64,000 bases of DNA from Branchiostoma floridae (taxonomy: Eukaryota > Chordata > Leptocardii > Amphioxiformes > Branchiostomatidae). The position numbers were made by a program, and so were the translations under genes. The DNA is taken from contig NC_049989.1 in assembly GCF_000003815.2 (NCBI RefSeq), forward strand, positions 3,655,580 through 3,719,579, given 5' to 3'. The notes under the pieces are model-generated. The model saw nothing but the letters and a program-made list of their open reading frames with translations, ran no database searches and had not been told where the DNA came from. Below, piece by piece: positions 12,471-38,215 of this stretch (position 1 is its first letter; each line of letters opens with the position of its first letter).

Positions 12471-13401
12471 GGTGTGGTGGGTGGCTACTGGTGCATGGTG
12501 CTGGTATGTATCTTATAGACGAAGGAATGGTCAGAAGCTTTATATTAGCCCTTAACTTCAAATCGTATAACGCAACATAGGACAAGCTAATAATTTTGCC
12601 AGACAACTTGTCAACATTGCACATAGTTGTACACCACACTGCACAATAATTCTATAACGTTAACACATTAGTTGTAGACTTTGTTGTGAATAATATGATA
12701 CGCATCAAACTCTTATCACCCCATTCCTTGATTATGTAAAATGATCAAACGCTTCTTACAAAGCTGCCCCGCCCCCCGTCTCTTCCACAGAGAATACCTG
12801 CTTTTAGTTCCGATGTTACGTGCTATCAATTGCATGAATTAAGACAATTGTGCAAAAAAGAACACATAGAAATATATGAAAGATAAACACATCTTCTACC
12901 TTGAGATCTCTGCTTCCGACCAAGGACGTTAGATAGAAGACAGCGACCCAACCCAGTAACTTTAACCAATGAGGTTTTATCATACAAAACCTCCTTGCTT
13001 GAACCTAACCAATATTTAACTAGTCAACTAATAAGTAAACCACGGCCTTATATTTGACCGTGACCGGTAGCATCTAAACAACAATGATCGATAAAATAAT
13101 GATATTTTCTCCTAAAAGCGGAGCATATTTTTCATTTCTAATCCTTTAAATAATCAGATAAGTATATTGTCATTTTTATTACAGATATTAGGTAATTTTG
13201 TTCCATTGGTAAACTCTATTTCTTATACAACTGGCTGCGTCTAGGTGCGTTTTCTTTCCGTGTTTTATCACTCGATCGCATTGAGTTCACTTCCGGGTAG
13301 CACAAAGCTAGACTCTGACTTTGACTTTATCCACACTGTCTGCGCCTTTGACCAGGCGGTCGAATATTTAAAACTTTTACAGTCTTCTGGCTATAAGCAG
13401 A
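12471..13401. promoter_or_regulatory. Divergent promoter region between FN3K-A and BLMH-A
   Basis: 931 bases separate the two start codons. The BLMH-proximal part is conserved in the second unit: TGCGTCTRGGTGCGTTTTCT, then ATCACTCGATCGC, then CACTTCCGGGTAGCACAAAG. The FN3K side may include a non-coding first exon: GAGATCTCAAG followed by GTAGAAG on the minus strand near 12895-12910, with the donor GT kept in the second unit near 21240. Confidence 0.55.
13288..13296 (-). promoter_or_regulatory. ETS-type site, copy A promoter
   Basis: CACTTCCGG, the reverse complement of CCGGAAGTG (the classic ETS/GABP core), lies 114 bases before the BLMH-A ATG. The element and its right flank are identical in copy B while the surrounding sequence differs. 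ETS sites are common in bidirectional housekeeping promoters. Confidence 0.5.
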
Positions 13402-14377
13402 ATGTCTCAGTCTACCGATCCCTCCTCCCCAGCCCAGGCGGCGTCAGAGGCCATGTCCACCGGAGAAATTAAACAAGACCCGGCACCTTGTATCAAAGCA
13501 GGTAACTAACGTTACACATTATGCACGATTTGCCTGTCAAATCTTCGAACCTGAGGACCTTTGCAAAACTGATGGTAGTAACACGTTCGCCGATAAAAAG
13601 AGTTTCGAAGATTTTCTCCCCATACTGATTTTACTTTATTTGCCTAATTTGAATAAAAAGCGAGAATATTTATTTTACCACCAATTGGAAGGGTGATTGA
13701 ATAACAGGGTACAAAAGAATAATAATGATTTGGGCTTGCAGACCATTGAGGAAGAAACAAATGTGCAATGTTCTGGTGTACCTGTAAATGCATTTACTGT
13801 TATGGTGGTTTCATTTTGCGATTGTAGTTCTTTTGAAATGTTTTGAAGTTTGTGGATTAAACAATTCTGTAATATACGTACAGAAGAATAAATGATATAG
13901 AAAACACAAGGTGTTATGAGTTCTCTGTAAATTTGATGGCTCAAATTATACTGTGATATATATAGTCATGAGTAATTAAATTTTTTACTTTAACAATAAT
14001 TATTCTATTGATAAGTCATAAATCAATGGCTAACCTTGACACAATGACCAAGGGATGATGATGATGAAAATGATGATCATTGATGATGATAACGATGATC
14101 ATTGATAATTATGATGATGATTATGATGATCATTAATGATGATGGTAATGATGATGATCGTTGATGCTAATGATCATTGATGATGATGATGAAAATGATG
14201 ATCATTGATGATGATGATGATTGTTTATCAACAGGTGTACCCACAGAGGTGCTGGCCAAGTTGCAGTCCAACTTTGAAGCTGGAGTAAATTGCCCTTTCC
14301 AACATTGTGGCGTGCCAGGGATTCGAACCTATAACCTTCACATTGTAATCCAACAACAAACCACATCTTACTTATAG
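13402..14377 (+). pseudogene. Truncated bleomycin hydrolase copy A / possible chimeric mini-gene
   Basis: Exon 1 (13402-13501, ATG to a GT donor, phase 1) encodes an N terminus nearly matching the intact gene (MSQSTDPSSPAQAAS). Exon 2 begins at 14235 with a good acceptor and matches the intact exon 2 (GVPTEVLAKLQSNFE) up to 14279. There the duplication breakpoint replaces it with SINE-derived sequence. The frame stays open to TAG at 14375-14377, giving a predicted 80-residue protein with none of the protease catalytic residues. AATAAA follows at 14463. It keeps the ETS-site promoter. As a protease it is dead; whether the short chimera is made cannot be told from sequence. Confidence 0.75.
14055..14222. 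repeat. GAT/ATGATC-rich simple repeat
   Basis: Imperfect (GAT)n with interspersed GATCATTGAT palindromes in intron 1 of BLMH-A. A shorter version (about 22222-22262) sits at the same place in the intact copy, so it predates the duplication. Confidence 0.8.
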
Positions 14378-14535
14378 GTCACACACATTATAGGTGGGGA
14401 GAAACATGATCATGTACAGATTATGAAGACTAGGACTGAGTTTGCATAACTATTGTGAAGGAAATAAAGTCATAAAATGGCTCTCCTCAAAGTTAGTTCA
14501 CCCCAAGGACTAGGAGCATTAAGTATTGTACATTA

Positions 14536-15785
14536 GGCCACGTTGATTTGATTATATGGATGACATCCGCGCTCGCACCAATTTTCGGCCATTTCCAAAA
14601 AAAAAAAGTTTTCCACCACACAATAAATTGTGCAAAGCAGCTGTAAAATGAGCACAAATATTCCGTAGATTGAAAAAAAAGTATCAGAAAACAGCTAACT
14701 AATGCCATAACTATAGAATGCCAAATTGAATCTAAAGTCAAAGAATAAGATGTGAAAGGACAGAAAGAAAAAAAAAATCTATTGTTGGTTGGGGCAGGTA
14801 CCAGTACAGAAAATTCAGGTCCAGAGGATCATTTCCAGGTCTGGACATGAACCTGGACCTGATTGTCTGTGGAAACTTGAGAACTGGCAATACTCAAAAC
14901 AATGGTAATTGGTCAATTTTGCTACAAAGGAATCTGTTTGATGAATTATTGGACTCCCACTGCATTTTAAAATCCCATCTACATGTAATAAAGGCTAACT
15001 GTCTCTGTACCTTTGACTGTAGAAACTTGGTGCAATTGACTATAAACTCTACTTGACATNNNNNNNNNNNNNNNNNNNNNNNNNNNNNNNNNNNNNNNNN
15101 NNNNNNNNNNNNNNNNNNNNNNNNNNNNNNNNNNNNNNNNNNNNNNNNNNNNNNNNNNNCGGTTATATTCCTCTCTATTTGTTCCATTTCTACGATTTTC
15201 CAGCGATTCGGAGTCTGGTAGAGACTACCTATACAGACGGATAGAACAGTTTCCATGCTTTTGACTTGTTCTTGCGTGAGCCACTGTTACTGATCTAATC
15301 GTATCTACCCTCTCAATACGTAATAGTATACATTAGTACGACATTTGTATCATGGTGAACATACTGTACAGTACTGTAATACAGTTGGTCGTATGAAAAA
15401 ATTACATGTGTGTCTTCAGTCAAGACTTCACCGTAGTAAGTATGTCAAACATTTCATTATACAGTGACAAAGACAGTAGTAGTATGTACATGGAGCGGAA
15501 AAGGGGCACCTTAGGCGGCGCCAGCAGACCAAATATTCGCGGTGGATTTAATTTCGCGGTGAAGCGGTCGCCGCGAAAACCGCGAATATTAATCCACCGC
15601 GAATATTTCTGCATTTACAGTACCATACTATGTGTGTTAAGTCCTATGTTCAACCTTCCTGGCCACTTTGATTTCATACTGAAGGCAACTTTTTTTTTTG
15701 GCCAAACTTTTTTTTTATTCGCTCGCTTTGCATCAGTTTTGGAGTTCCCGGAGGATGTCATCCATATAATCAAATCAACATGGCC
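14536..15785. mobile_element. Harbinger/Tourist-like non-autonomous element with TTA target duplication
   Basis: Inverted ends GGCCACGTTGATTTGATTAT and its complement at the right end (ATAATCAAATCAACATGGCC) match over more than 30 bases. TTA flanks both ends (14533-14535 and 15786-15788), typical of PIF/Harbinger elements. The equivalent place in the left unit (about 7853-7862) is uninterrupted. The element contains the 100-N gap, so its length is uncertain, and no transposase reading frame is visible. A fragment near 14788-14870 (GGTACCAGTACAG, CAGGTCCAGAGGATC) matches the hAT-like element at 50572-51590, so it is itself composite. Confidence 0.75.
15060..15159. other. Assembly gap (100 N)
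   Basis: A run of exactly 100 undetermined bases inside the Harbinger-like element. The true size is unknown. No coding exon is interrupted. Confidence 0.98.
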
Positions 15786-16045
15786 TTAGGTGTGTTGAAA
15801 AGTTAAACTAACATGAACATTATTTTGATGTGATTTTGAAGGTTTTGAATTAAATTATTGCGTGTTTGCAAATGTGATGATTTGAACCAAACATTATATG
15901 TTTGCTACTGTAGAATCTATTATGCCGATCATCTAGGGTTTAGTTATAATCACACCTCATTAAAAAAATGCAAGTTAAAACAAAAGTGTTGCATTACTAT
16001 TTCTAGTGCATGTTTATGTATTGGCCTTTAGGATTACAAAGTTAC

Positions 16046-16170
16046 CAGTGGGCAAGTATAATACCAGTGGGCAAGTATAATATCAGTGGGCAAGTATAAT
16101 ACCAATGGGCAAGTATAATACCTGGTGAGTGGGCAAATAGAATATCAGTGGGCAAGTATAATACCAATGG
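16046..16170. repeat. 19-base minisatellite
   Basis: Six to seven imperfect copies of CAGTGGGCAAGTATAATAC. It forms the left part of an insertion absent from the paralogous left unit, where CCAG and CATTTTCC are directly adjacent near 8172. Confidence 0.85.
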
Positions 16171-16468
16171 GGCTTTAAGGCATTTAGAGGCTGTTAGGGT
16201 TTAACAATATTGAAGAACATGTTACATCAATAACATGTTATTTTGGTTTTGTCTTAAATAGTCATAGTTGCTGCTGCATTAGGTTTTTGATTGGATTTAC
16301 ATTAAATATGTTTTTGCAAAATTGGGCCAAATTCTTATAATATTGGTAAGTTCATCTATTTTTGCAGGGATAGAAGTGGGAAGAATAGTTTTCCCTAAGT
16401 TTTATGTTTGGAGATAAAACAATTGTATTGTACAGTACATGCTGTAGTCATATATTAGAAATACATTT

Positions 16469-17347
16469 CAGAGGCGGCGGCAGCAAATTTCGTATGGGGG
16501 GGCGAACTTTACTGACAGAATTTTGCTGCACATGTAGCGCCGAAGGCGCTACCAGTCGCGGCAAAGGCACGACAATCCTATGGGGGTCTGGGGGCATGCT
16601 CCCCCGGGGAAAATTTGAAATCTTGACCCTCTAAAACGCCATTTCCTGCGTTTTGACGGGCAACTTTTGCTGCCAGACTAACCTAAGTTTGATGGCAATT
16701 CTGTAAGAAAGACACATGGTTTTTAGTAGCGAGGGCGATGCCCCCAAAATATTTTCACGATTTCGAGTACCGAAGATGCGAGCTGTCGCAAGGTTGGTCT
16801 GGGGAAATTTCGAAATCTGCACCCTCTGAAATGGCATTTTCTGTATTTCTAGGGACAAATTTTACTGGCAGACTATGCTAAATCTAATGCCATTTTTGTC
16901 AAAGAGAGAAATTGTTTGAGGGCGATGACCCACACAAATTTTCGCCATGTCGTTGTGAGCGCCCAAGGCGCAAGTTATCGCTAGGGAGGTCCGGAGAAAA
17001 TTTTGAAATCTTGACCGTCTGAAACGTCATTTCCTGCATTTGGGGGCCACATTCTGCTTGTAAACTAAGCTAAGTACGATAGTAAGATTCAGTTAAAAAG
17101 ATTTTTGAGAGCGACACTCCCGCAACATTTGCCCTGCGACGGAGACGCGGGCCGTCACAAGGGAGGTCTGGCGAAATTTTGAAATCGGGACTCTGAAACG
17201 CCATTTCTTGCATTTTTGGGGGTAAATTTTGCCGTTAGACGAGCTTGATTTAATGAAATTTCCATCATCAAAAAAATACAAAAGGTTTCAGCTTGCTTTT
17301 CTGGGGGGGCGTCGCCCCCCCTGCCCTTCCCGGTGCCGCCGCCACTG
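16469..17347. mobile_element. GC-rich-ended DNA element with internal 190-base tandem repeats
   Basis: The left end CAGAGGCGGCGGCA and the right end (reading inward on the other strand) CAGTGGCGGCGGCA form terminal inverted repeats followed by G-runs. The interior holds four diverged units of about 190 bases, each with GAAATCTTGACCCTCTAAAA-like and CCATTTCCTGC-like segments (near 16616, 16812, 17004, 17180). No transposase frame is seen. CATTT borders both ends. I do not assign a superfamily. Confidence 0.55.
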
Positions 17348-17658
17348 CATTTTCCTGGTGACATGAATTTACAGTCGAGAGGTCACTGTGAAATAAAACT
17401 GCTACAGATGTTTCAAGATTTACAGTAACATTTGCCCTCACTTTTGCAAAAGACTTATAGCATGAATTCAAATAAATAGAATATGTAATACATTTATAGG
17501 CAGCAAGCTTGTCCAAACAGCAAGTGAAACGTTGCTGCACAGCAGGTAAAAATTTCCACAATGACATTCAAAGTGACAAATGTTGAAAGGGCCTTTCAAC
17601 AACTCAGAGCAATATCTAACTTCAATGCAAGTAACAGTTGCAGGTTTATGTTAAATGA

Positions 17659-20600
17659 TTAATATTCCTTCAGAAGACTCTTCATGATGCTGACTGAGGA
17701 TCCTCTGTAGCTTGACCCAAAGTGATTCCTGAAAATTACAAAAGGAAGAAATCAACTCAAGTGAAACAAGGCTCATAACATTTGCTTCACTCTTATCATA
17801 GAATTCGATACATGTCAGGGCAGGGTCAGCATGTTACATTATTGTCTGTGTGATGAATTGAGAAATATATGAAAATAATTAAAGTATTCATCATCGACAT
17901 TTGCTCATGACTGAGCAATAAAGTTTCATGTCAGATCAAGCCTCAGTTACTATCTGTGGATGACAGTGTCTCATGTGTAGCCTCTCTTTACGTTGCTGTC
18001 TTCTAGTTGGATGGGTCCTAGAGACAGGCCTGATTTGAGCCTACTTCACACTCACCAGTGATTCAAGTAGTGGAAGAGTTTGTACAGTTCATGCCTTGCC
18101 TCCCAGCCAGGAGCTTTTGGAAGAAGTTTGTGGTACGCTGAAAAAAACCTTCCTCCGAATCCTCCAAACATTGAGGCTATAGCCAACTCATACTCATGGT
18201 GGCCATAGAAGGATGCTGGATCAAATATAACTACAGAAAAAGAAGGAAAACACACATCAGATTTTAGGACAATGTGTAATGAATGTGCAAAGCCATATGC
18301 CAGAAAGCCTAAACCTCCGTCACAAAGCGTGAAAATTCATTGGCCAAGTGACACTAACCCGGTCCTTTATCATTCTCAGCAGCATTCCCTCCCCAGAGGT
18401 CTCCATGTAGTAGTGACGGGCTCACTTTCAGACCCTCGAAAAACTTTGGCAGCTTCCGCTCCAGCTGGGGCCAAAGGTCACGAGTCTCTCTGTCATGGTA
18501 CTGGTGATGAGACAGAGGGTAAAAGTTCATGTAATCAGGTTATTTGCAAATTATGATTTTCAGTTTTTATGTATTATTAATGACATGCCTTTATAGATTT
18601 TTCATGCATGACATTAAGATTTGTGTATAATATATTTGAGTGTAGTGGCAGCAATAGACTCACATCTTTCTCTACCAGATCCAACTGGAGTTTCAGTTTC
18701 CTGGTTGCATAGAAGGACTGGAAAGAAAAACAGCATTTATCACAGTGACTATGAATGATGTTAGCATTTAGATATCAAGTTCTACAAGTATAACATCAAT
18801 GACGAAACAGACGTGCAATATATTAACATGATTAAATGTAAATTAATATCAATTTTGCTATTTTGTATCACTCTACAATGAACCTTTCATTAATTGGCCT
18901 ACTTATCAGAACAATTTTCATTACTTTATCTACAACTTTGAACAACCATAGGAGAAAAATAGGGAAAAACCTACTACGTACCACCCAGTCATCCGACCAT
19001 GTGTTATCCTGGGGGATGGCACCGCAGCATGTTTTCGTGTGGAAGCCAAACTGTGACACGTACGCTGGCGCCGCATCCCCGCCATGTCCGACTCTGGACG
19101 AACCAGCTGCTGCCTTTTTAGCCACCTCTTCATTGTGGAGATGCAGTCTGTAGTACAATGCAGGGGAAACTGTCAGATGTTATCATGACTGATGATAGGA
19201 TGGACAAACATCCTGTATATTTGCATGGGAAGTACCCCTGTCCCTGTGGGACTTAGTGCGCCAGTAGACGAGAGGGTGGAGAAGGAAGTGCACACCCCTC
19301 CTTCACCTTAAAAAGTCACGTGCAAGCCAGGCAAACGGCTCACCTAACCCACCCTGTCTGCCGTAACCATTGTCTTACGAGACAGATGGATGCCAACCAC
19401 TGTACTCTAAATGGTTCCGTCTGTCATCATATCATCCTTTTCGATTATCAAAATCCAGACAATATAATGATTTATACCTTGCCATTTGTTCTCCCAGTTG
19501 ATCAGCATATGACCTCAGGCCCCCCATGTCTACATGTTCCATAATCAGCATGGCTCCTCTTCCTCGTGGGTCATCTAAAACCTATAGAAGAACGTTTCTA
19601 TTAACAAAATTGTAAGAGCACTTGTCATCAATATCATGAACATGCCAGCACCAACAAGTTGGTCCATACAAACTGAAAGACATACAGTATCGTGACAGTG
19701 ATATATAATTCATGATGTGCTTGTCCAGTTTGCCTATTTTCTGACTAGTACTAGTACACCATCTTTGCCTCACATCATGTCACTCAATTATTCCAATAAC
19801 TTCAAACACATGCCAAGACAAACAAACAAACAGACTGGAAACAATACCTCCATTTTCATGAAGGCAAATAAGAAATTGACATGATATAACTGTTAGTCTT
19901 TGAAGAACAAATGCTTCACTCACACATGCTTGTCTGGATAAAATTGAGAAATGAGATAGAGAGAGGGAACAAAAGAAAGACAGGAAGACATCTAGATAAA
20001 CACCTCTAACCTTGATAGGTTTAGGCACTGTTACAGCACCAGTAGCTGCTATGGCCTCCAAACTGGCATTTTCTCCTTCAAACATCACTCTTGCCTAGAA
20101 AACACACATTAGAAATGAAAGAACATAATTACATGGTCACATGCCATGAGGCCTTCTTAATTGGTTAGCAATGGCCCATTTCTTGTTCATTGCTTCAAGT
20201 ATCAGATGTCAAACTGAACTAGTAATAATTGTAATAAAAGTATAGGAAAGTACTAGTAGTTAATGACTATTTCAATTAAAAGATTTCCCAAGCAATGTAC
20301 CAACATCAAGGTCTTTAACATCATCAAGGTTGCATTCAAATACTGTAAATGCCTTAAAGTTCAGCGGGACATCATCATTTACTTTTGCAACAGGGACTCA
20401 AGACGAAAGGTTGTGTTTGTGGTATACGGTTGAAACAGGATGGACAGAATATGCATTTCACAGTGTTTTCAAGTACATTTGTGGTGACAACATTTTTTAA
20501 CAGCTAAAAACACTGCAAATATTTCAACATTTACAGTATGCCTTACCCCCTTGTCACCGTTCATCTTGACAAAGAACTTCCCCTGATCAGTCTCGTACCC

Positions 20601-20684
20601 CTCGCCATGGTTGATACAGCCGCCTCCGCCACCGATGGGCCGCAGTTTCGTCGTGTTCAACTCTCTCTTCAGAAGATCCTCCAT
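17659..20684 (-). CDS. FN3K: Fructosamine-3-kinase (FN3K family), copy B
   Basis: Eight exons with the same lengths and phases as copy A: 20684-20547, 20094-20011, 19581-19478, 19147-18982, 18717-18664, 18500-18359, 18230-18056, 17728-17659, again 310 residues. The glycine-rich loop, HGDLWGGN and FDPASFYG are all kept, so it should be an active ketosamine kinase. Differences from copy A are few and mostly conservative: Gln for His in the exon 1 segment [16 protein letters not shown] for [10 protein letters not shown] in exon 5, EYELAIA for EFEMAIA in exon 7, and a C terminus MKSLLKEY closer to the family's basic end. It is divergent from the intact BLMH with 971 bases between start codons. 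The protein is clearly FN3K family; orthology to FN3K or to its vertebrate paralogue FN3KRP cannot be settled here. Confidence 0.9.
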
Positions 20685-21655
20685 GGTGCTGGTATGGATG
20701 ACTCTCCTACGTGTATCTAACGCTAATTCATGTACATGAAAGAATGGTTCAAAGCTTTATGTTAGCCATGAACTTCAAATTCTATTATACCTACAGTAAC
20801 ATCTCAAATGGAGGTATTGCTTTTACGATATAATAATACTTTGATACTTTTTTATGTTAGACTTGTCTACATTGCACATCAAATCCTACACCACTCTCAC
20901 ATGTAAAATCATAATCATAATAATTGATGTGCAACCATATAGCACAGGTTGTCAATCAACCCTTGAATGCATCTCATACTATGCCCCATACTTTGAATAT
21001 GAAGACCTTTAAATCGCACGTTCAAAATGAACATATTGACATAAAGGGGCTAGACAAAAACAAAACTATTTTGATACAATGTAATATGATCAAACGCTTA
21101 TTGCTTTAGCTGCCCCGCCCCCTGTCTCTTTCAACGAGAATAACATTTCGGATTTAATTTCCGAATTCCGTGCTATCAATTGCATCAAGACATTTGCACA
21201 AAAAAGAGCACATATCATAAAGATTAACACAACTTCTACCGTGAGATCTCTTCTTCAGACAGCGACCCAGTAACTTGAACCTTACTGGAGCTAAACTCAT
21301 CAACTCATGATCATCAATTCCATCAGAACCTGACCTTTGACATGGAACCGGAGGATGGGTAGCATCTAAACAACAATAAACAATAAATCGATGGGTGAAA
21401 TTTTCTAAATTCACAACGTATTTTTCAGATTTAATCACTTAAATACTCTTATGGATATCATTTTATTTTTAATACAAATATTATTTAATTTTGTATTGAA
21501 AATAAACTCTTTAACGATGTTAGAACTGACTGCGTCTGGGTGCGTTTTCTTGCCGTTAATCACTCGATCGCCTTCACTTCCGGGTAGCACAAAGAACTGT
21601 CTGCGTCTTTGACTGTCGAATCTTTTTAAATTTTACAGTTTTCTGGCTAATCAGG
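20685..21655. promoter_or_regulatory. Divergent promoter region between FN3K-B and BLMH-B
   Basis: 971 bases between start codons, homologous to 12471-13401. Conserved blocks near the BLMH side include TGCGTTTTCTT, AATCACTCGATCGC and the ETS-type CACTTCCGGGTAGCACAAAG. No TATA box is evident. No other gene is seen. Confidence 0.55.
21575..21583 (-). promoter_or_regulatory. ETS-type site, copy B promoter
   Basis: CACTTCCGG (complement of CCGGAAGTG), 81 bases before the BLMH-B ATG and identical with its flank to the copy A site. Survival through intron-level divergence suggests it is functional. Confidence 0.5.
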
Positions 21656-24600
21656 ATGTCTCAGTCCAACGATCCCTCCTCCCCAGCCCAGGCGGCGTCA
21701 GAGGCCATGTCCGCCGACTCTCCGAAGGACGCGGCCGCCCAGAAACAAGACTTGGTACCTTGTAGTAAAGCCGGTAACTAAAACGATCATGACTGGCATT
21801 TTTGTTTGTGATTTTCCGATTCTGCTTTGCAGAGCTGATCAAAGGAACGATTGCGTCCAAACACAAAAAGGGGTTCCCCAGATCTTCCCTGTTTAGTTTT
21901 CGCTTTATTTGCCTAATTTTAACAAAAGGCGATAATACCAATTTACCACCAATTGGATGGGAAGTGGGGGTGGGGGTGGGGGTGGGGGGTGGTGGGTTAA
22001 TAGCACTGGTAACGTTACGAAACGAAAATAATGAGCATGCAGACCATAGCATGTTCTGGAGTAACCGTAAATGCATTTACTTTTGTTTTTGTTTCGTTTA
22101 CCCATTGTAGTTTTGCCCGCGCGTTTTGCCCTTTCCTTTATCAATATTTTTTTCTTCTTTTAATTCATTGATAATTCATAAATCAATGACTGACATTGAC
22201 CCAAAATTATTGGCCAAGGGGTGATGATGATGATGATGAAAATGATAATCATTGATGATGGTGATAATGTTTGTTTATTATCAGGTGTACCGATGGAGGT
22301 GCTGGCCAAGTTGCAATCCAACTTTGAAGACGAACCCAAAAATAGGCTGGCACAGAACGTGGCGACCTCCAATGACCTCCTGTCGGTGTGCCTGAATCGG
22401 AAGGTCACCAGTCAGATCAATCACGTCTTCCAACACAAGATCCCAACAGAGGGGAAGCCAATGACCAATCAGAAGAGCTCTGGCAGGTGTGAGGCGAAGG
22501 AGATAACCAATCATGTGCCAGATAACATCAATATTTAAAAGCATCAATATCTAAGAGCCGTTTTGAACTAAAAATTTACAGTTAAAAGTTGCCTGTTTCA
22601 AAAATATATTTGTATGTACAAAAAGCACATGGAATGGATATGTATACTTTGGTTCAATAGCACAGCACATGTATGTTGGAAATCCAGCTAAGATTTCACT
22701 TGGTTATATCTTGATGTCTGGTTAAAACATTGCGATCCTAAGTTTTCATAGTGAAAATCAACTCACCGTCAATTCTGACTGGTGTGTTACAAGATAAGCA
22801 GATGGCCATGGGGAAGCATAATGAAACTATAGTTGGCTCAACGCACCATGTGCAAGAGGATGAGTGAGTGAGTGAGTGAGTGAGTGAGTGAGTGAGTGAG
22901 TGAGTAAGTTACTGGAGAACTTTTGACTTACCTCTTTTTCTATCCACTGCCCCACAGATGTTGGATCTTTGCGTGTCTGAATGTAATGCGTGTTCCCTTC
23001 ATCAAGAAGTTTGAACTGGACGACTTTGAGTTCAGCCAAAACCACCTTTTCTTCTGGGACAAGGTAATGGCTAGAAAATTAAATTTAGAACTTAATTGAC
23101 TGACCTGTTTATGCATGTAGCATTCTTATCATTTGTACTAGTAGGTGATTGAAAAATGTACATGTATGTTTGAAGCAACATGAAATAGGAAACAGGCTTC
23201 TTAGACCACCAAAGTGTTATTTTAAATACTTCTTGTATGATTCCTTGCTTTTATTATGTATTGTTGTAGGTCCTAGGTATGAAAATCATTACGTTGTAAA
23301 GTTTGGGACACAGATTTCTACAGACTTAGTTTGAACAGCTGGTGGGATTCATGCTGATATGTATGTCTTTTACACAGATTGAGCGAGCAAACTACTTCCT
23401 GAATGCTTACGAGGAGTGTGCAAAGCGGAAAGAGCCCGTAGACGGTCGTCTCTTCCAATTCCTCCTTGCCACGCCCAACCCCATGAACGACGGCGGCCAG
23501 TGGGACATGCTGATCAACCTCATCAACAAACATGGCGTCATGCCAAAGAAATGCTTCCCAGAGTCCTTCAGTGCCACAGCGTCTAGGAGACTGAACCAAA
23601 CCTTGAACTACAAGGTCTGTCTGTCAACCTATTTTTGTCTGGCCTCCGTTGATTATTATTGACCGTAAATCAGCCTTAAAGCATCATCTTTTTTCTAAAC
23701 AGTCCAAGGAAGGTCTCTTCCATATAAGTCACATCTTTAAGTGTAAGCTGACAGAATTTTGTTCTTTTGTTCCTTTCTGTGGATCCGCTTTTCTTTTTTG
23801 TCTTCTTTTCTTTTCCTTCTTGTGGTCTTCAGCAGTTCTTATCTGTATCAAAAGGAAAGGTGGATTTTTTTCTTTACTTTTAGATCCTGATATCAAAGTT
23901 CTACTACCTGACAAGGACTACTGCATTTCTATATTCTTCTACATTTGTATAAGGATACTGTTGTCCTTCAAATTGGTAGCATTTGGGAAAGAGTGTCATA
24001 TTGAACACACAGACCACTGCAGTAGTGATTGCACAAAAGTTGTGTGGCCCAGGGCTACAGAAACAGAGATGGGTGCCACCCTATGGACCATATAGTGGTG
24101 GACGGACTTTGACTTAATAAAATATTCTGCCCCGTCTCTGCAGCTCAGGTCCTTTGCAGTGCAGCTGGCCAGCCTGGTGGAGAAAGGCGCATCACAGGAC
24201 GAACTTGACCGTGAGAAGGTCAGGATGATGGACGAGGTTAGTCAGGTTTCAAAGTCAAGTTGTTAATAGAAATTGGTTACAGTGGCTATTTTCTGATGGA
24301 GATGTAAAGACTAAAGCTAAGTTTAATTTTTTTCTCAGTCCTTTTTCCAGTCCTCTTATCAGCTAGAGGCCTGCGTAGAGCCCTTTATATTCTATCATTG
24401 ATGTTATAACTTAAATGAAATACACAGGTACAACAGGTACCCAACCAACTGGATGTATGTTTTGTATATGGTCAGAAGCTCTATGTACATGTACATGTAC
24501 ATGTAGCATCATGTACTAGTAGTTAGTCTTTCTTCTGCGACTGAGAAGAATCTGAAGTTGTACAATTTTATTCAACCAAAGCTTAAAACATGCATTGATT

Positions 24601-27600
24601 CATAAGTAAGGTGACGACAATGGTAGGACAGTTATATGCATCAGGTAAAAGATCAGTGAACATAATGACCGTCTGTTGTCATTTCTTTCCATCAGGTGTA
24701 CAGGGTGACCAGCATCAGCCTTGGAAGTCCTCCTGAAACCTTCACCTGGGAGTACTATGACAAGAGCAAGAACTACAAGAAGATTGGGCCCATCTCCCCC
24801 AGACAGTTCTACCATGAGCATGTCAAGCCACTCTACAACATGGACGACAAGGTATCAGCTTGTCATTCCTTATCTCGGAGTATGGGCTGAAGTTGTTGTT
24901 TACCTTGTATTGCGTAGTGGCACAAGAGTCAGCAACTTTCTTTCCTGTTTCTGTAACAAGATATATTTTTACAAATGGCGGTTGCTAGCCCTTTTCCCTT
25001 TCAAATTATCGATTACCCAATTTTATGTCCCTTCTGAAAGATGGGTGCAGCCCCAACCAAGATGCCCTTCCCAAGACTTGATCTGGGTTACCAACTCATT
25101 GGACCCAGGAGCTGAACTGTGCTACCAGTTGAGCACAGGGACAACACTTGAATTCGAAGTACATGTTGTATGAATGTTGGGAACGGAAATTTGTATTACC
25201 ACAAGAAACGGGAAAATAAAACCACCATGAACATCTCAAGCCTCAAGTTACACAGTATTCATGAGAAGTCTTTATCCAGACCATTGTAGATGTCATGAAT
25301 TGCCTCCTATTTTTCCACAGATCTGCCTGGTAAATGACTGCCGTCCTGCCAACCCCTTCAGTAAGCTGTACACAGTGGAGTTCCTGGGAAACATGCACGA
25401 GGGCCGGAAGGTCCTGTACAACAACCAGCCAATCAGTGTGCTGAAGAAGGCCACGGCAGAGTCCATCAAGGCGGGGGAGGTCAGCACCCAGTTTTGTAGT
25501 GTTTTTGAATGATGATGATGATGCTGTGTGTGTTTGCTTTCTGCTTTGCTGCAGCTTCTAGACTAGAGTATATCACCAGAATTTGTAATGAAAATAACAA
25601 CACCAAATAGTTTAAAGTGTTCATGACTCAAAAATAAAATATTTTCTTATGATTAATGACATTTTGGATAGTGTCATTCATTGAACATAACTATTTAAGT
25701 ATTTACATCAAATTAAACCCTTCTGATGGTATTGAAAGCCTTGTTTAAACCACCATGATCATAATTTCAGATCTTGATCTTGATGCCATATAGTCAGATT
25801 AAACGTTGACTGTACCTGCAATGATATAACAGGGCACACTGGCAGCTTGCAGAAACATTATAAGTGAATAGCCTTAATCATTGTGACACACAACTGCAAG
25901 ATATACAAAAATGTAAATGCATTTGCTTGATTTCTTATGGGAACATTTTTTGCAAGCTGGCTGTGTTCACTTTGACATCATCTCTCTTAACAGATTGAGT
26001 TAGTCCTTTACTGTTTTGTCTCCATCTGTAAAGGCTGTCTGGTTTGGCTGTGATGAAGACCCACAGTCTAATGACAAACTGGGCATCAGGGATGTCGGTT
26101 TGTAAGTGCGCTTTTGTTCTTGTTCCTTGTAAAATCATTGAGCATGGTGCAAAGATCTTGACTAATGCTTTTGTCTTGACTAAGGCTATCTGGTTTGGCT
26201 GCGATGTTGGACAACACTTTGATCGCAAACTGGGTGCCATGAACCTTGAATCGTAAGTGCCTGTTGGTATATATCTATATGTGAGTTGCTTGTCTGTCCT
26301 TCGGCAAAAACAATATGTATTTCCTATTGGGGAAAACATAATTATGCCAGTGTGTCTTTTTGTTTTGTTTCTTTGTTCTGTCAAAAAACAAGTACTAGTA
26401 GATGTAGGGTGGCAGCTCTACTAATACAGAAAGTTGTCTATGTTGGTATACTTGATAATGTGGTTCAAAATTTCCGTATCACAGTATATCAATGGATGAC
26501 TCCACTTGCATAAGTTATGTTAATGACCTTGGGCCTGGGGCTTCTTTTTTTCTTTTTATATTCATTGTGCTCTCTTGGATAGTTAAAAAGAAGCAAGCAT
26601 TACCATTGCCCACATCTGCAATGTCATGATCTAAAAGAAGGATTCCCTGTTTGTTCTTTAGGCACGACTTTGAGTTAACACTTGGGGTATCCAGGAAAAC
26701 GATGGATAAGGCGCAGAGGGTGATATTTGGTGAATCTCTCATGACCCATGCAATGGTCATCACAGCTTTTACTCAGGTAGGTACACGCCACATGTTCTAG
26801 CTTCATGATACTGTAATACAATGTACACATTGCCTTCTGCATCCTCTTGAATGTGAGTTAGACAAAGTATGACAATCACTGTAGATGTGCGTGTAGGCAA
26901 GGCTGACTACCCCAATGTGTCCTTAACTTGGTACATGTAGCTCCTGAAAGAAGCAAGCTCCTGTAATCTCTTTTCAACAAAACATCACTTTTCCTTTTGA
27001 ACATAATTTCATCGGGTTGGTAGATCATAGGACATAGGAGTCTTTTACACAACCAGTTTTTTTCTCACCTGCTGATGTTTCAACGTCTGTCAGACATCTT
27101 CCTCAGAGCTTCTAACTGGAGTTCTGCTTCTCACCACTGTATGTAGCTGATGTTGGTGGCGCTTGGGATAGTTCAGCCACGTTTTGGATGGTGTCCTCGC
27201 TGCAAAAGTGACGCCTACATCAGCTACATAAAACGGGATCTAGTGCAATATTTGGGATCTAAGCCTAACACGTCTCTAACAATGCTACCTTTTCAGGGTG
27301 ATGATGAGAAGTACGTGAAGTGGAGGGTGGAGAACTCCTGGGGAGAGGAGGGAGGAGACAAAGGTGGGTTATCTTAAAGTCAATGTACCTCCAGTGTCAA
27401 TGTCAAGGTATATTGGTATTGGTTGCTGTTTAATACGTTTGTACTGTCTTTGTCTCTGTCAAAAGTGCTAGTTCTTTGTAAGAGCCACAGGCTAGTTGGC
27501 CCCCCTTGCTGTGCATGCAGAATAGCCAAACAGATGAATAGATATTAAGTAAAGCTACAAGTGTATGTAGTGAAACTGCAGTATTTTGTCAGGCTTGGGT

Positions 27601-28134
27601 CTTGCGAACATTTCAGAATATCAAGATACATGTATTAGAACTCACGAGCTGCCAAATGTGCAGGAGCTTTGCTAGTCCAAAAGGATATTTCAGTAGCAAT
27701 ATATCTGTCATCCTTTTGAATACTCTGTCAGTTTTGAAATTTTGGGACCGTGTAGAAATCAACAATTTGGCTTGGTCATTAACACTGCTTTTGAAGTAGA
27801 GTGCTGCAGATTTCTAAATTTACATTATGCAGGGCATACACCATGTCTATATTTTCCTTCCTATCAGTTCATTCTATTTTCCCTTACTCTGAAAACTAAT
27901 TTTCATTTCATGTTTTCCGACATATCAATGAAAATTATCATATTCCTTTCTCCTACAGGCTACCTCATCATGACTGATGACTGGTTCACAGAGTACGTGT
28001 TCGAGGTGGTCGTCGACAAAAAGTTCGTCTCGGAGGAAGTCATGACTGTGTTCAAGCAGGAACCTGTTGTCCTTCCAGCATGGGACCCCATGGGGTCTCT
28101 AGCCAACAGCTGCTCAGCAAAGTCTCACCTTTGA
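21656..28134 (+). CDS. BLMH: Bleomycin hydrolase (C1B cysteine peptidase), complete copy
   Basis: Eleven coding exons: 21656-21773, 22285-22486, 22958-23063, 23378-23614, 24144-24236, 24696-24851, 25321-25479, 8a 26034-26101 or 8b 26185-26252, 26662-26776, 27297-27363, 27959-28134. With either exon 8 the frame is intact and gives 498 residues (human about 455). Bleomycin hydrolase is a cytosolic homohexameric aminopeptidase of the papain fold that trims N-terminal residues and homocysteine thiolactone and inactivates bleomycin. The triad is visible: Cys108 in SSGRCWIFACLN (exons 2/3), His409 in MTHAMVITAFTQ (exon 9), Asn431 in VENSWG (exon 10). The C terminus DPMGSLANSCSAKSHL runs past the usual short end, which in the family lies in the active-site cleft. 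The extra N-terminal length is a Ser/Ala-rich leader of about 35 residues, poor in hydrophobics and not a signal peptide. The gene converges on the Kv gene. Confidence 0.93.
21958..22006 (+). repeat. G-rich tract with G-quadruplex potential
   Basis: Repeated GTGGGGGTGGGGGTGGGGG within intron 1 of the intact BLMH, downstream of its start. The homologous place in BLMH-A (near 13681-13695, GGAAGGGTGATTG) lacks the expansion. Confidence 0.6.
22857..22906. repeat. (GAGT)n microsatellite
   Basis: About twelve tandem GAGT units in BLMH intron 2, roughly 50 bases before the acceptor of the catalytic-Cys exon. Confidence 0.95.
23985..24118 (+). repeat. SINE 3' fragment
   Basis: GATTGCACAAAAGTTGTGTGGCCCAGGGCTAC through GGACTTTGACTT matches, inverted, the tail half of the SINE at 56646-56927. 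It lies in BLMH intron 4 and is 5'-truncated. Confidence 0.6.
26034..26101 (+). other. BLMH: BLMH alternative exon 8a
   Basis: 68 nt, acceptor ...TGTAAAG, donor GTAAGTG, phase 0 in and phase 2 out. It encodes AVWFGCDEDPQSNDKLG followed by IRDVGL. It is homologous to exon 8b but diverged in the middle. Including both exons would shift the frame by 136 nt, so only one can be used per transcript. Confidence 0.7.
26185..26252 (+). other. BLMH: BLMH alternative exon 8b
   Basis: 68 nt, acceptor ...GACTAAG, donor GTAAGTG, same phases as 8a. It encodes AIWFGCDVGQHFDRKLG followed by AMNLES, which is nearer to the usual family sequence (CDVG.HF..KLG..MNL) as I recall it. Only 83 nt separate it from 8a. 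Confidence 0.8.
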
Positions 28135-29066: not shown

Positions 29067-30527
29067 CTACACACTGCTGGCCCAAGTTAATAGCGGTGTA
29101 CTCTCGTACTCCTCCGTACCCCTCTCGTTCCCATGGCTCTCTGTTCTCGTTGGCTGATTTAACACCTCATCACTTCCTGTAGTACACGTGTCCCTTGTCT
29201 GAGGCGCCTTTGGTTCAGGTGCCAGACACCGACACCCCTTACGTTTCATGTAGACCATGTCCTGGGAGGACCGGCACAGCTCGTTATAATTGCCAATGAC
29301 GACCGTTACGGGCAGCGTGAGGAGAATAACCGAGCTGATCATGCAGATGCCCGTCACCACCTTGCCAAATATGGTCACAGCCACCATGTCACCGTATCCA
29401 AGCGTTACCATGGTGACGATGATGTACCAGAAGGTGTGAGGGACGGAGATGAAGGGGGAGTCTGGCACGCCCCTCTCAGCCTGGTATACGATGATAGAGA
29501 ACAGCACCACTGTGATCAACATCGTGAAGACGAGAAAGCCCAGGTCTTTCAAGCTGTTCTTCACCACGTAGCCCAGTCGTTTCAGCTTTTCCGAATGGCG
29601 TGCGAGTTTGAAGACCCGGAAGACGCGGAGAACCCTCAGTGTGACGAACGCGCTCGTGACGGTGCTTTTCTGCGGCAGCACGAGGCTGATGTAGAAGGGC
29701 AGGATGCTGACCAGGTCGACGACACTCATGAATTGCCGGACGTGCTTGCAGCGGTTAGGAGCCGCGTAGAGTCTGATGATGTACTCTAACGTGAAGACTA
29801 TGGCAACCGCAACCTCAAGAACTGAAAACGGTGTCGTGAAAATCTGTCCAACGTATACAAACTCTCCCTCCTTTTTCCCAAGCGAGTAGATAGAGTTTTC
29901 TACGACATTTGCAGTGACGGAGAGCGCTATGAACGCCGAAGTAAGCCAGAAAAACACTGCCCCAAATGTGCTCTGTTTAGGGTTCTCGATCATGTGATAC
30001 AGACGTTCTCGGAAGGTTCGCGGCGTGGGTCGGGCCATCTTTTTCTTCAGAAACGGCTTCAACTTCTCCAAGGCTTCCTGTTTGTCCTCATAAAACTCCA
30101 GACAACAGCTGCTGATGACTTCTTTGAGCTGGTCCAACTCAAACCCGAAGGATGATAGTTCCTGCTGATAGTCCAGCAACTCCTCTTCGAAAGGAAAGTG
30201 CAGCATCCCTGTTTGATAGTAGTTGAGAATGTATCGGAAGATCTCAGGGTCACGATCAGGAAAGACATACTCCTGACAGTCCTTATCGAAGAAACGCTCG
30301 CGTTCTTCACTGCCTAGCAACGTATCCGGATGGAATTCCAAGATGTGTCTCGAGACTTGAAACCGAGCACCTCCGACTCGCAAAACGACTTTGTCCGAAC
30401 GACAACGAGCGATTCTCTTCGCTTCTTTCCGGAAGGTTTCCAGAGGTGCTCGGGTTAATGCCTCCTGTAGTTTGCTGGTCCTGTGAGTGGGCTCCGGAGT
30501 AGAGGCCCCACCACGTACAGCATACAT
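29067..30527 (-). CDS. Intronless voltage-gated potassium channel, Shal/Kv4-like
   Basis: A single 486-codon frame. The tetramerisation (T1) domain spans about residues 47-145 (VVLRVGGARF, then DRDPEIFRYILNYYQTGMLH). Six membrane segments follow. S4 at 297-311 (LRVLRVFRVFKLARH) has regularly spaced Arg/Lys voltage sensors. The pore carries the potassium selectivity filter TLGYGD at 375-380, and S6 ends LTLPVTVVIGNYNEL. The pattern ENP..S, FFWLTSAFIALSV, AAPNRCKHVRQFMS and TLGYGDMV is closest to Shal/Kv4 among Kv families. Members form tetramers in the plasma membrane and carry fast transient potassium current. Oddities: the gene has no introns, the T1 zinc-site Cys after LHFP is missing, and the S6 hinge PVP is PVT. 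The start is the first Met, 46 residues before T1; the typical Kv4 hydrophobic N terminus is absent. The cytosolic tail is short. Confidence 0.9.
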   Translation of the reverse strand: MYAVRGGASTPEPTHRTSKLQEALTRAPLETFRKEAKRIARCRSDKVVLRVGGARFQVSRHILEFHPDTLLGSEERERFFDKDCQEYVFPDRDPEIFRYILNYYQTGMLHFPFEEELLDYQQELSSFGFELDQLKEVISSCCLEFYEDKQEALEKLKPFLKKKMARPTPRTFRERLYHMIENPKQSTFGAVFFWLTSAFIALSVTANVVENSIYSLGKKEGEFVYVGQIFTTPFSVLEVAVAIVFTLEYIIRLYAAPNRCKHVRQFMSVVDLVSILPFYISLVLPQKSTVTSAFVTLRVLRVFRVFKLARHSEKLKRLGYVVKNSLKDLGFLVFTMLITVVLFSIIVYQAERGVPDSPFISVPHTFWYIIVTMVTLGYGDMVAVTIFGKVVTGICMISSVILLTLPVTVVIGNYNELCRSSQDMVYMKRKGCRCLAPEPKAPQTRDTCTTGSDEVLNQPTRTESHGNERGTEEYESTPLLTWASSV

Positions 30528-33106
30528 CGTCAGCAGTGTTACAGTGATTCTCTGTTAGCAAACTTGGTTACCAAAGAGTCTAGCGCGAGCGTTAAAACGT
30601 CATCAGCCCAGATTGTCCCCTGAAAAATTTGAGAAACAATTTATGACCGTTGACGAAATGATTTGGAAAGTCACAATATCCCAACCATCTTTGCAAGTAC
30701 GAAAACAGCTTGGTTTCTGTCAATACACAATCTATGGCGGAAAATGGCAACAGAGCAAGACTATTCGTGTAGTGGTCTACTGCAAACGGTGCCAATAATT
30801 CTATTTACTGACTGTTGTCAGGTAATGATACAGGTCCGGCTGTCAAAAACACCGTACAGTACATACAAAACAGTGGACTACAAGTAGAGCATTCGTGTCT
30901 TATCGTATAGACTTAGTTCACCAATCTACGGAAGTACGTGTACGTCTTTTCACATTCAAGAGTCCGTACTACTGTTGTTGACAGGTGGTAGATGTCTACA
31001 GTTACCACATGCAGTCACAGCGTATCACACACGGGTTCATATGATACAGGTGCACGGGGTACACTAATCCGTACGTTCGATTACTTTGGAAGATCGAGGC
31101 ACTCTCACTTAGTTATTACTCACTTAATGTTGTTTTGGCTGTGTTGATAATCTGCCAACATTTGTATAAAAAAAGGAGTTGGAGCTCCAGTGAGTGAAAT
31201 GGTCCCAATTCGGTCAGTGTGATCACACAGTATACTAGTACTATTCTTGACCCTCTCCTTCTACCCCTTTCCGCCTCACTTTTCACGACGCAGACTTCAG
31301 TACAAAGCCTAAGCCTACGTACTAATGTTACACGCATACCTGGTGCTTCCATGGCCTGTGTCACTGACGGTCTAGTCAGCACCAGTTGTCATGAAATCCG
31401 TCGGCACACTCGGTCTCCCCCAGTAGTACGTGCAACTATGGTCTTATCCGAACACCATTTTACGCCTCGGTACACGGTAAACAACGGCTAGAAAGTAGGC
31501 GTCGCTTTTCTTTGTTAACGCGTTGAAAGGTGGGTTGAAACTCTAGAAAGGTAGCCTTAGTGAAACTTGAAAAGAGAGGCCGTCATCCGATAAGAGTGCG
31601 ATGAAAAAGGAAACCACCTAACCACATGAAAACAAACAGAATGGGTAAAGAGAAGTTGGCAAATTGTTTGCGTTGAGACCAAAGAAAAAAACCATCAATT
31701 ACACCAGCAACAAACGTTGTTAAATACTAGCCTCCTTTGCAGACTTTTGGAGGGGCGCCTTTGCAAACTTTTGGAAGGGGGTGGGGGGGGGGGGGAGGTT
31801 CTCTATGCAGGGAGAGGTAGTTGCTCCATAGGTCTGCGATGTAGGCTAGCTAAATACGACAATTTCCAAATTTCTTGTAAGCCCACAAGATTTCGTGGAA
31901 GCCAATCTGCCGTGAAATACATGTACAGATTGAATAATGTCTGAAATGATGACTCTCTTACACTAGCGATATCATTAGCATAGACTGATGTATAAGCAAA
32001 TACTATTACATGCTGAGTAAATGGCGGAAGTTATCAGGGGAAAGCGGATGATAAACACATATGTCCTTCACCTACTCTTTTCGAACAAAAAGAGAGTAGA
32101 TATTGAGGTAGGTGGTGCTTCTACTGTGATCACTGTGTGACACGGGCTTCACGCGTGGTGTGTAAAAGTCTGTCCTTTTTATTCCAAATCGTGTCTTTCT
32201 AAGTCATAACGTTCATTCTCGGCGTATGTGAAGACATCTGGACCTGTTTTGGAAATTGTTCACATGCTTTAAACCTAATGTCTTGTAAATATTCACAGTT
32301 TACACATATCGAGACTACTAGTATATACCCCATAAGAGCCCAATCTGCAGTACCACTGTCGTCCGCGGCCAGAAAAGTGGTAAAACGACCGTCAAATTGC
32401 TAAGTTCTGCTCTTTTCGAGAATGAGGAAATCACGAAAGACTCGCGAAGGGGTTTGACTTTTTAAAACTTCTTTATCTATATTTTTTAAAGAAATAAAAC
32501 CATTTAGAATGCGGAATGGAGATGTTTTGGACATTTCACGAACAGAACAATTGGTTATTAGGCCCAAGATAATTTCCTTCGCATTTTACCAAAGTGGTCC
32601 AGCGTATATTTACAGTACTAAACTGTCATGTTCTGAAGGGTTGCTGCCCTGAAATTGTAATCCGTATATGAAACAGTAAGGCGTTAAACAAATGTAAAAG
32701 TGTTTTGTACATTAGCCTGTCAATCGATCTTGAATGTTCCCCTTTAAAATACAGTAACGTGTATGATCACTTGACGGTGCAATATAACCTTGGAAGCTTG
32801 GGGAGCCCCTAAAGAATCATTTTGACACCCTCCCCTAAATAAAACAAGACTGCATATAGAATATAGGGGAAAACTGGCTTCATATACTTCATCATGATGT
32901 TCGAGGTTGCCTTCAACATGTATTCCAGCCCGGAAAGAAAATGATTATCAGGAAAAGAGACCCCATTACCCAAATGGCTTATAACCTTTGTTCGGTCAAC
33001 GACCCACGTGTACATATTTACTCGGAGTTGTAGATTTGTTTTTGCCGTCGTGTACCAGTGGTTCCAAAAGTCACTAAGTTAACCCCTAACCTGCCAGGGC
33101 AACAGA
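30528..33106. other. Intergenic between Kv gene and ependymin-like gene
   Basis: About 2.6 kb with only short unconvincing frames. It must hold the divergent 5' regions of both neighbours. A G-run lies near 31780-31795. No TATA box, tRNA or clear repeat family was recognised. Confidence 0.5.
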
Positions 33107-36656: not shown

Positions 36657-38215
36657 ATGAACCGCAGAAGTAACTGCATTGGGGCAACCTTGGTGATCCT
36701 TCTCGTCACAGCTCGCTACACTGGGATACGCTTGGCTTCGGGGGCGAGTTTGAATGTTACAGAGCAGGCCAGCGAAACAACCAACATCCTCCACAACTCG
36801 ACATTACGGAATGGCTCTTTGGAGAACTGGGATACCTTATCGATCACTAACAACTCTAAGGTAAGAGAAAACGTCCTTTCAAACGCCCCAGAATGTATCC
36901 ATATCTGTATCCGCATCTGTGTAACTATACTTCGGTGTTAAAAAAAAAAAAAATTGGTCACAAACTTTGCAGACAAGCGTCGCGGCAGCATTGTGCGGTC
37001 TGTCACACCGAACCACTGTACAGCTAGCTGTCAGCATTGTTTGAAGCTATGGGTTGATGATGCTCATATAGCACTTGGTGGCAACAAGTGCCACTATATG
37101 ATAGTTCCAGCCATCTAAAGTACCAGTCCAAAAATCTGTTTTCCCTAGCAGGTCCAGGGAAAAAACGAACTTCCAGAAGAACAAATTTTCAACTGGCTTT
37201 TTAAGGCAAGACTATAACCTTCTTCTTTTTCTGAGCTGGTATAGGATACTTAGTAGTCGATACGTCTTCCCGTTTTGTAGTCATTTGCACATCATTAACA
37301 TTTTCTGTCTTCTTCTGTCTTTAGGATGACTCGAAATCCCCAACTGTCTACATAGAGGACCAGTCAACCGTAGGTGCATACATGGCTTTATGTGTTGGTG
37401 TCTGGTCGGTGGTGGCAAACAGCCTCCCGCTAGCAGCCATAGTCAAGTACGAACAGCTCCACACGCCTGTCTACATCCTCATGGCTAACCTGGCGGTAAG
37501 TGACGTCTTAGTAGGCATACAATTCGTAATTCGGAGTATTGCTCTGTTGGCCTACAAAAGTACGCAGTCTCTTCCGTCCAATACCGCGGTACGCCTTTCC
37601 TCCACCTCAACCCTCGTTTTTGGCATGTCCTCCGCCTACGGTCTGCTGGCCCTGACGGCTGAGCGCTACTGGTTCATCGTACATGGGATGACCTACGTCA
37701 ACAACGTCGACAACGGCAAGTGCAAGGTCGTGGTCTTGATCGTCTGGGTGTGGTCAGTCCTGCTGGGGATGCTACCCAACTTCGGCTGGCACTGCGCAAG
37801 TCCTACCGAGGAAGGATGCAGCCCGACAGGAGGAGGATTGCCTCACGGCTACATAGTCCTCATCCAGGCGTCCATTGTCATCGCCATGGCGGGAATCATC
37901 CTTCTCAACACCGGTGTGTTCTGGTGCCTGTGGAAGCACATGAACGCCATCGCTGACCAACAAGCCGCAGTGGGCGCCGAGTCGGGTACAAGCAGAAGAT
38001 CCGCCATCACAATCGTCATCATCACTGCGATGTTCCTGGTGGGATGGCTACCAGCAATCATAAAAATGGCCTATCCTACTGAAGCCAGCAACATCTATGC
38101 TGTCTTCGTAATCTTGAACTCGGCAATCAATCCTATCATCTACGGATTTCGACTGTCGGAGGTTCGTCGTAGCGTTGTGCGGCTCTTCGCGAACTGTAGC
38201 GGAAACGGAAACTAA
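36657..38215 (+). CDS. Class A GPCR of the EDG/melanocortin/cannabinoid (MECA) type
   Basis: Two exons, 36657-36860 and 37325-38215, joined in phase 0 to give 364 residues. Exon 1 encodes a probable signal peptide and an Asn-rich extracellular tail with several N-glycosylation sequons (NVT, NST, NGS, NNS). Exon 2 encodes all seven helices: TM1 WSVVANSLPL, TM2 MANLAVSD, TM3 ending TAERYWFIVHG (ERY for DRY), TM4 WSVLLGMLPNFGWHC, TM6 AMFLVGWLPAII, TM7 LNSAINPIIYGF. TM3 lacks the usual disulfide Cys and the second extracellular loop has its own Cys pair (WHC...EGC). That combination is typical of lysophospholipid (EDG), melanocortin and cannabinoid receptors. The TM4/ECL2 text looks most like S1P/LPA receptors. 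The ligand is unknown. The cytosolic tail is very short (about 20 residues). Confidence 0.85.

Follow-up and report, generated by a model that had tools for sequence, protein, structure and literature searches.

The bleomycin hydrolase (BLMH) gene of the amphioxus Branchiostoma floridae carries two versions of its eighth coding exon, 8a and 8b, side by side, and its reading frame tolerates only one of them at a time. On balance, the probable reading is that a single BLMH gene had exon 8 duplicated in tandem long ago and has kept both copies as a mutually exclusive pair, with enzyme forms that would differ at the S1' site. Here we set out the evidence for the pair, its age, the constraint on each copy, the part of the enzyme that it would change and the way in which exclusive use could be imposed. 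The window, the whole stretch of DNA that we analyzed, is 64,000 nucleotides long.

Results

The gene encodes bleomycin hydrolase with either exon

We modeled the coding part of the gene from start to stop codon as 11 exons, one of which is doubled (Table 1). In phmmer searches, the predicted protein matches human BLMH (7v5l/1cb5) with E values of 7e-201 to 3e-198. Against 7v5l, the 8b form scores 671.6 bits and the 8a form 666.3. Both forms match the Pfam family PF03051 (Peptidase_C1_2) over its full length (positions 4-438 of 438), at 614.1 bits for 8b and 606.3 for 8a, a difference of 7.8 bits with a cut-off of 22. Alignment to the human protein places the catalytic triad at Cys aa 108, His aa 409 and Asn aa 431. 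His aa 409 corresponds to human His372 by the alignment and the numbering in PDB titles, in which Cys73 and His372 are named as mutants; we take human Cys73, His372 and the Asn to have catalytic roles. These matches support the identification of the predicted product as bleomycin hydrolase (BLMH / Gal6 / PepC, PF03051), whichever exon 8 is used.

A search of the species' own genome (513,431,437 bases, 431 contigs) with PF03051 gave six matches at E <=0.001, all within the BLMH gene, and no second gene of the family; this search scores only the best candidates, and a truncated 5' BLMH copy at about 13402-14279 is absent from its matches. The predicted protein ends with nine extra residues, NSCSAKSHL (28090-28134), after the GSLA to which the terminal GALA of human BLMH aligns. 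The extension merits a look, because the C-terminal tail of BLMH/Gal6 sits in the active site. Elsewhere in the window, downstream of BLMH on the minus strand, lies a 495-aa open frame of the voltage-gated potassium channel type (29070-30554; BTB_2 and Ion_trans), and a plus-strand frame of 296 aa (37325-38212) belongs to the rhodopsin-family receptors (7tm_1, 107 bits).

Table 1. Coordinates of the BLMH gene and of its duplicated exon within the window
Feature	Position	Strand	Basis
BLMH coding part, ATG to stop, 11 coding exons, one doubled as 8a/8b	21656..28134	+	gene model
Coding exons 1-3	21656-21773, 22285-22486, 22958-23063	+	gene model
Coding exons 4-6	23378-23614, 24144-24236, 24696-24851	+	gene model
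Exon 7, phase 0 at end	25321..25479	+	gene model
Exon 8a, 68 nt, AVWFGCDEDPQSNDKLGIRDVG + 2 nt	26034..26101	+	gene model, exon alignment
8a codons 8-14 (EDPQSND), replacing VG of CDVG; aligned with papain S1' wall	26055..26075	+	profile, alignments
Spacer intron, 83 nt	26102..26184	+	sequence, branch-point scan
Exon 8b, 68 nt, AIWFGCDVGQHFDRKLGAMNLE + 2 nt	26185..26252	+	gene model, exon alignment
8b codons 18-23 (AMNLE + TC, last residue completed by exon 9), off-family part	26236..26252	+	profile
Exon 9, phase 2 at entry, encodes catalytic His (aa 409)	26662..26776	+	gene model; human alignment
Exons 10-11	27297-27363, 27959-28134	+	gene model

The reading frame allows one copy of exon 8

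Exons 8a and 8b are equal in length, enter in phase 0, leave in phase 2 and share an AG before and a GTAAGT after the exon. They are identical at 45 of 68 nucleotides. Their local alignment score of 26 lies above every one of 2000 dinucleotide shuffles (8.5 ± 1.6, maximum 18); the likeness is therefore not a matter of chance. The initial annotation had the two copies diverging sharply in the middle. The tail diverges too, with IRDVGL in 8a facing AMNLES in 8b. Exon 8a contains neither a stop nor an indel, and a tblastn search of the whole window found only 8a and 8b as copies of exon 8 at E <0.01. On the minus strand, a stop-free frame of 160 aa (25938-26417) runs antisense to both exons; it has no Pfam match at 0.01 and is probably there by chance.

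Joining exon 7 to exon 9 through either copy leaves an open frame of 498 aa, as initially described. Including both brings a stop after aa 398, inside 8b, and including neither brings one after aa 360, early in exon 9. The earlier claim that joint use breaks the frame thus stands, although the length added relative to the single-exon form is 68 nt rather than the 136 nt first given. The premature stops precede the last exon junction by 195 nt (both exons) and 173 nt (neither), and mRNA with such stops is expected to undergo decay. The last residue of exon 8 is aa 380, 29 residues ahead of the catalytic His and close to the distance of about 30 proposed from the first inspection. Together, the frames and the alignment support a tandem exon duplication in which the frame imposes an either/or choice.

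The duplication is old

If the exon was duplicated in a simple tandem event, 83 nt of intron would have been copied along with it. The copied intron flanks of 8a and 8b now match at 25 of 71 positions, compared with 24.3 ± 3.3 in 2000 shuffles, and gapped local alignments of the flanks are equally unremarkable (p 0.25 and 0.40). Simulations at two indel rates (P 0.01 at one rate and 0.025 at the other) set a lower bound for neutral divergence of about 0.4 substitutions per site, and values of 0.8 to 1.5 fit well. Because the copied flanks are down at chance similarity, the data support an old tandem exon duplication as the origin of 8a and 8b.

By contrast, a younger tandem segmental duplication in the window can be aligned through its intron. 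Its two units (7624-14279 and 14311-22329) share aligned blocks that are 74-97% identical. It includes a minus-strand gene that we call fructosamine-kinase-like on the strength of motifs and of a single frame scoring 20.2 bits, short of the Pfam cut-off of 22.4. From BLMH, it includes the 5' flank, exon 1 and 45 nt from the start of exon 2. The resulting truncated 5' copy of BLMH, at about 13402-14279, has a deletion in its exon 1. BLMH and the fructosamine-kinase-like gene stand head to head at 20700-21656; possibly the two share a promoter region that was duplicated along with both.

Each copy departs from the family in a different segment

The most serious rival, which we consider unlikely, sees in 8a a duplicate that is unused or decaying and that looks like an exon through history and chance, with all mRNA containing 8b. 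Much of the evidence on the two copies bears on it, and not all in one direction. The differences between 8a and 8b are spread evenly over codon positions 1, 2 and 3 (6, 9 and 8), as decay would have it. With very few sites, dN is 0.41 and dS 0.58, and neither a 21-nt scan (P 0.06) nor a run test (P 0.60) is significant. The even spread, the dN and dS values and the two nonsignificant tests give no clear overall sign of purifying selection. The absence of stops in 8a is also compatible with decay, since about half of simulated neutral copies are free of stops after 23 changes.

Comparison with relatives treats the two copies more evenly than decay of 8a would suggest. Each matches the human sequence at 13 of 23 residues. 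Where they differ (14 residues), human BLMH sides with each copy at four positions and with neither at the other six, so that the human-polarized changes are equal in number. Among 16 prokaryote relatives, six are nearer 8a, seven are nearer 8b and three tie. We then scored the 23 residues against a profile of these relatives plus human, which gave 37.5 bits for 8a and 45.3 for 8b; the profile is unevenly sampled, as its relatives are mostly Lachnospiraceae and Lactobacillales from one scan with six patterns, among them EAIWFGCD from 8b itself, which favors WFGCD but not the V-G that follows. The off-family segments differ by copy. In codons 8-14, 8a scores -5.7 bits and 8b +17.7, whereas in codons 18-23 it is 8a that fits the family better (+9.1 against -5.5).

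Simulated neutral change gives results that depend on the starting point. Starting from 8b and making 23 random changes, none of about 10,000 stop-free trials reached the score of 8a (35.3 bits over 22 codons). A chimera of 8a and 8b, 13 bases away from 8a, is a more lenient start. From it, the score is unremarkable after few changes, in line with the decay reading: 10 and 12 changes give P 0.18 and 0.08, and 14 changes give P 0.018. Against that reading, the first eight donor bases are the same in both copies (8/8) despite an adjoining intron at chance similarity. Overall, there is moderate evidence that 8a has been kept by selection.

Exon 8a replaces part of an invariant motif at the predicted S1' site

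The segment in which 8a leaves the family begins within the motif CDVG. This motif is kept by 8b and is present in 16/16 prokaryote relatives and in human BLMH; in 8a, its Val-Gly is swapped for Glu-Asp (CDED), residues 365-366 in amphioxus numbering. The loss of two invariant residues is the kind of change that a decaying copy would also accumulate. In one prokaryote relative (A1), the motif is C315-D316-V317-G318 and is invariant across 15 relatives of that protein. The predicted structure of the folded prokaryote relative places V317-G318 directly after a strand at 311-316, although the mean pLDDT over residues 311-320 is only 77.

To place the motif in the active site, we turned to papain, in which Ala136-Ala137 form S1' (PMC4764322). 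The motif's V-G aligned with these two residues in three of three MAFFT modes and in hhalign at mact 0.05 and 0.2, while hhalign at mact 0.35 drops the S1' region. When hhalign compares the whole family with papain alone, its alignment at mact 0.35 is confined to the His/Asn region, and at mact 0.1 the exon 8 region is misplaced. The suggestion that exon choice could alter substrate handling gains support from this alignment of the changed residues with S1', and the choice probably changes the substrate groove of the enzyme. Because the Glu-Asp of 8a aligns at the S1' site of papain, a switch of P1' preference or of activity would be the likeliest effect of 8a.

Splice sites of both copies are ordinary to weak

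The two exons had been credited with good splice sites, a description that did not hold up when we scored 11 acceptors and 11 donors with a splice-site matrix. The acceptors of 8a (5.0) and 8b (3.5), both AAG, are the weakest of the 11, the others ranging from 7.5 to 13.6. Their donors (4.1 for 8a, 5.3 for 8b) are the second and third weakest, though both read GTAAGT. Between 10 and 17% of the GT or AG dinucleotides in the gene region score as high or higher, which suits the view that 8a is exon-like by chance. The sites of 8a are not clearly inferior to those of 8b, however, and its acceptor outscores that of 8b, which argues against decay. Regulated exons often carry weak paired splice sites. 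The splice sites of 8a and 8b are thus ordinary to weak and in themselves little proof of exon status. When a 143-aa peptide running from 8a to the end of the protein was compared with the species' own genome, the four matches at E <=1 were all exons of the BLMH gene, and no processed copy recording the 8a splice was found. We infer from the sequence that 8a would be used in mRNA.

Loss of frame best explains the proposed exclusive use

Three mechanisms have been described for mutually exclusive exon pairs: incompatibility of U2 and U12 sites, a donor too near the branch point, and lengths that are not a multiple of three, so that joint use leads to decay (PMC5740500). In that study, the first accounts for 5 cases, the second for 57 of 629 human clusters (9%) and the third for 377 of 629 (60%). 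U12-type sites are absent from both BLMH exons, which have GT-AG borders and GTAAGT donors (U12 consensus judged by eye).

The initial annotation favored a steric block, in which the short spacer would keep 8a from being spliced to 8b. This is a rival on the mechanism only, not on the pair, and we consider it improbable. The spacer is indeed short: it is shorter than 21 myosin introns of the same genome, which are about 111 nt or longer by estimates from exon matches (21 exon pairs hand-picked from 142 matches), and the other BLMH introns span 314 to 595 nt. However, the two consensus branch points that could serve in the spacer are 60 and 64 nt downstream of the 8a donor, beyond the steric limit of about 50 nt between donor and branch point (PMC7969005, PMC5740500). 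A third consensus match, at +78, leaves 5 nt to the acceptor. The spacer scan also found weaker matches, to TNA only, at +31, +36 and +40, which precede the final AG ahead of the acceptor. The short spacer may still act as a partial length handicap that aids exclusivity.

Exclusivity can also come from base pairing of intron segments with one another (PMC6071210). Of three predicted pairings compared with 100 shuffles in this one species, none was convincing: the uncorrected fraction at least as strong was 0.06 for intron 7 with the spacer, 0.92 for the spacer with the intron between 8b and 9, and 0.02 for intron 7 with the intron between 8b and 9. The local RNA fold scores -86.6 against -84.8 ± 5.3. 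Exclusive use of 8a and 8b is best explained by loss of frame, because it is the only one of the three mechanisms in PMC5740500 that applies to this pair.

A last reading, very unlikely in our judgment, makes the pair an off switch, with joint inclusion (or skipping) shifting the frame and lowering BLMH through nonsense-mediated decay while the 8a-only protein is incidental: the stops in 8b and early in exon 9, 195 and 173 nt ahead of the last junction, agree with it, as do the consensus branch points at +60 and +64, which do not preclude 8a-8b joining, but 8a alone gives a full frame and keeps family-like residues, neither of which would be required of a pure poison exon, and the spacer is shorter than the 21 estimated myosin introns.

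Discussion

We return to the reading that both copies of exon 8 have been kept as alternatives. The proposed course of events would begin with the tandem duplication of exon 8 long ago. The spliceosome would select one copy from two weak and similar acceptors, and nonsense-mediated decay would clear products that contain both exons or neither. Within the active-site groove, the two enzyme forms would differ on its prime side (S1'), with Glu-Asp from 8a and the invariant Val-Gly from 8b. The 8a form may prefer other second residues in its substrates, basic ones being the simplest guess, or it may be less active, and 8a and 8b subunits could mix in the hexamer.

A bolder version of this proposal, which we regard as doubtful, would see a splicing switch within the S1' site of a self-compartmentalizing aminopeptidase. 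Exon 8a would retune acceptance of the second residue while 8b would have drifted in the next segment, so that the ancestral constraint would be split between two forms that mix in the hexamer.

Mutually exclusive exons are well known, in amphioxus as elsewhere (FGFR, PMC5703972), and we found none for BLMH in the open-licence literature searched. The human set resembles 8a and 8b in being adjacent, equal in length, alike in phase, homologous and not a multiple of three, so that joint use breaks the frame; those pairs were validated by splice-junction reads, whereas 8a and 8b are known here from genomic sequence alone (PMC5740500). In amphioxus FGFR, exons IIIb, IIIc and IIIx are likewise mutually exclusive in a cephalochordate, and one of them is lineage-specific; unlike BLMH, FGFR is a receptor, is regulated by Esrp and had its exon use shown by RT-PCR (PMC5703972). 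Exons 4a and 4b of OGDH, a metabolic enzyme, offer another parallel: they too are mutually exclusive, and the size of their spacer intron is restricted, but there exclusivity comes from human branch points 25-41 nt off the donor, compared with consensus ones at 60 and 64 nt in BLMH (PMC7969005).

A further parallel is a peptidase, insulin-degrading enzyme, in which one exon is exchanged for another, 15a for 15b (PMC7830943). There, the exchange alters catalytic efficiency: enzyme with 15b works less efficiently and is able to enter mixed dimers (PMC7830943). The abundance of 15a in mouse liver exceeds that of 15b about 1000-fold (PMC8467815). Unlike BLMH, insulin-degrading enzyme is an unrelated metallopeptidase whose isoform has been established experimentally (PMC7830943). 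Within the BLMH / Gal6 / PepC family itself, the whole amphioxus protein fits with either exon; what sets it apart is an 8a form lacking the V-G of CDVG and a gene with an alternative exon.

The claim that no isoform switch of this kind had been described for BLMH agrees with what we found in the open-licence literature, judged by titles and the starts of abstracts. Among papers on bleomycin hydrolase and alternative splicing, taken in the same way, none reported a BLMH splice isoform, and no open-licence paper on bleomycin hydrolase in amphioxus was found. The words bleomycin and BLMH are absent from the main text of a survey of mutually exclusive exons (PMC9741552).

If it is spliced, 8a would provide a natural variant of CDVG, a motif that the 16 prokaryote relatives and human BLMH all keep, at the place where the second residue of the substrate should bind. 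If this is true, the amphioxus gene would offer a direct test of the role of the CDVG motif and a rare case in which exon choice tunes the specificity of a protease.
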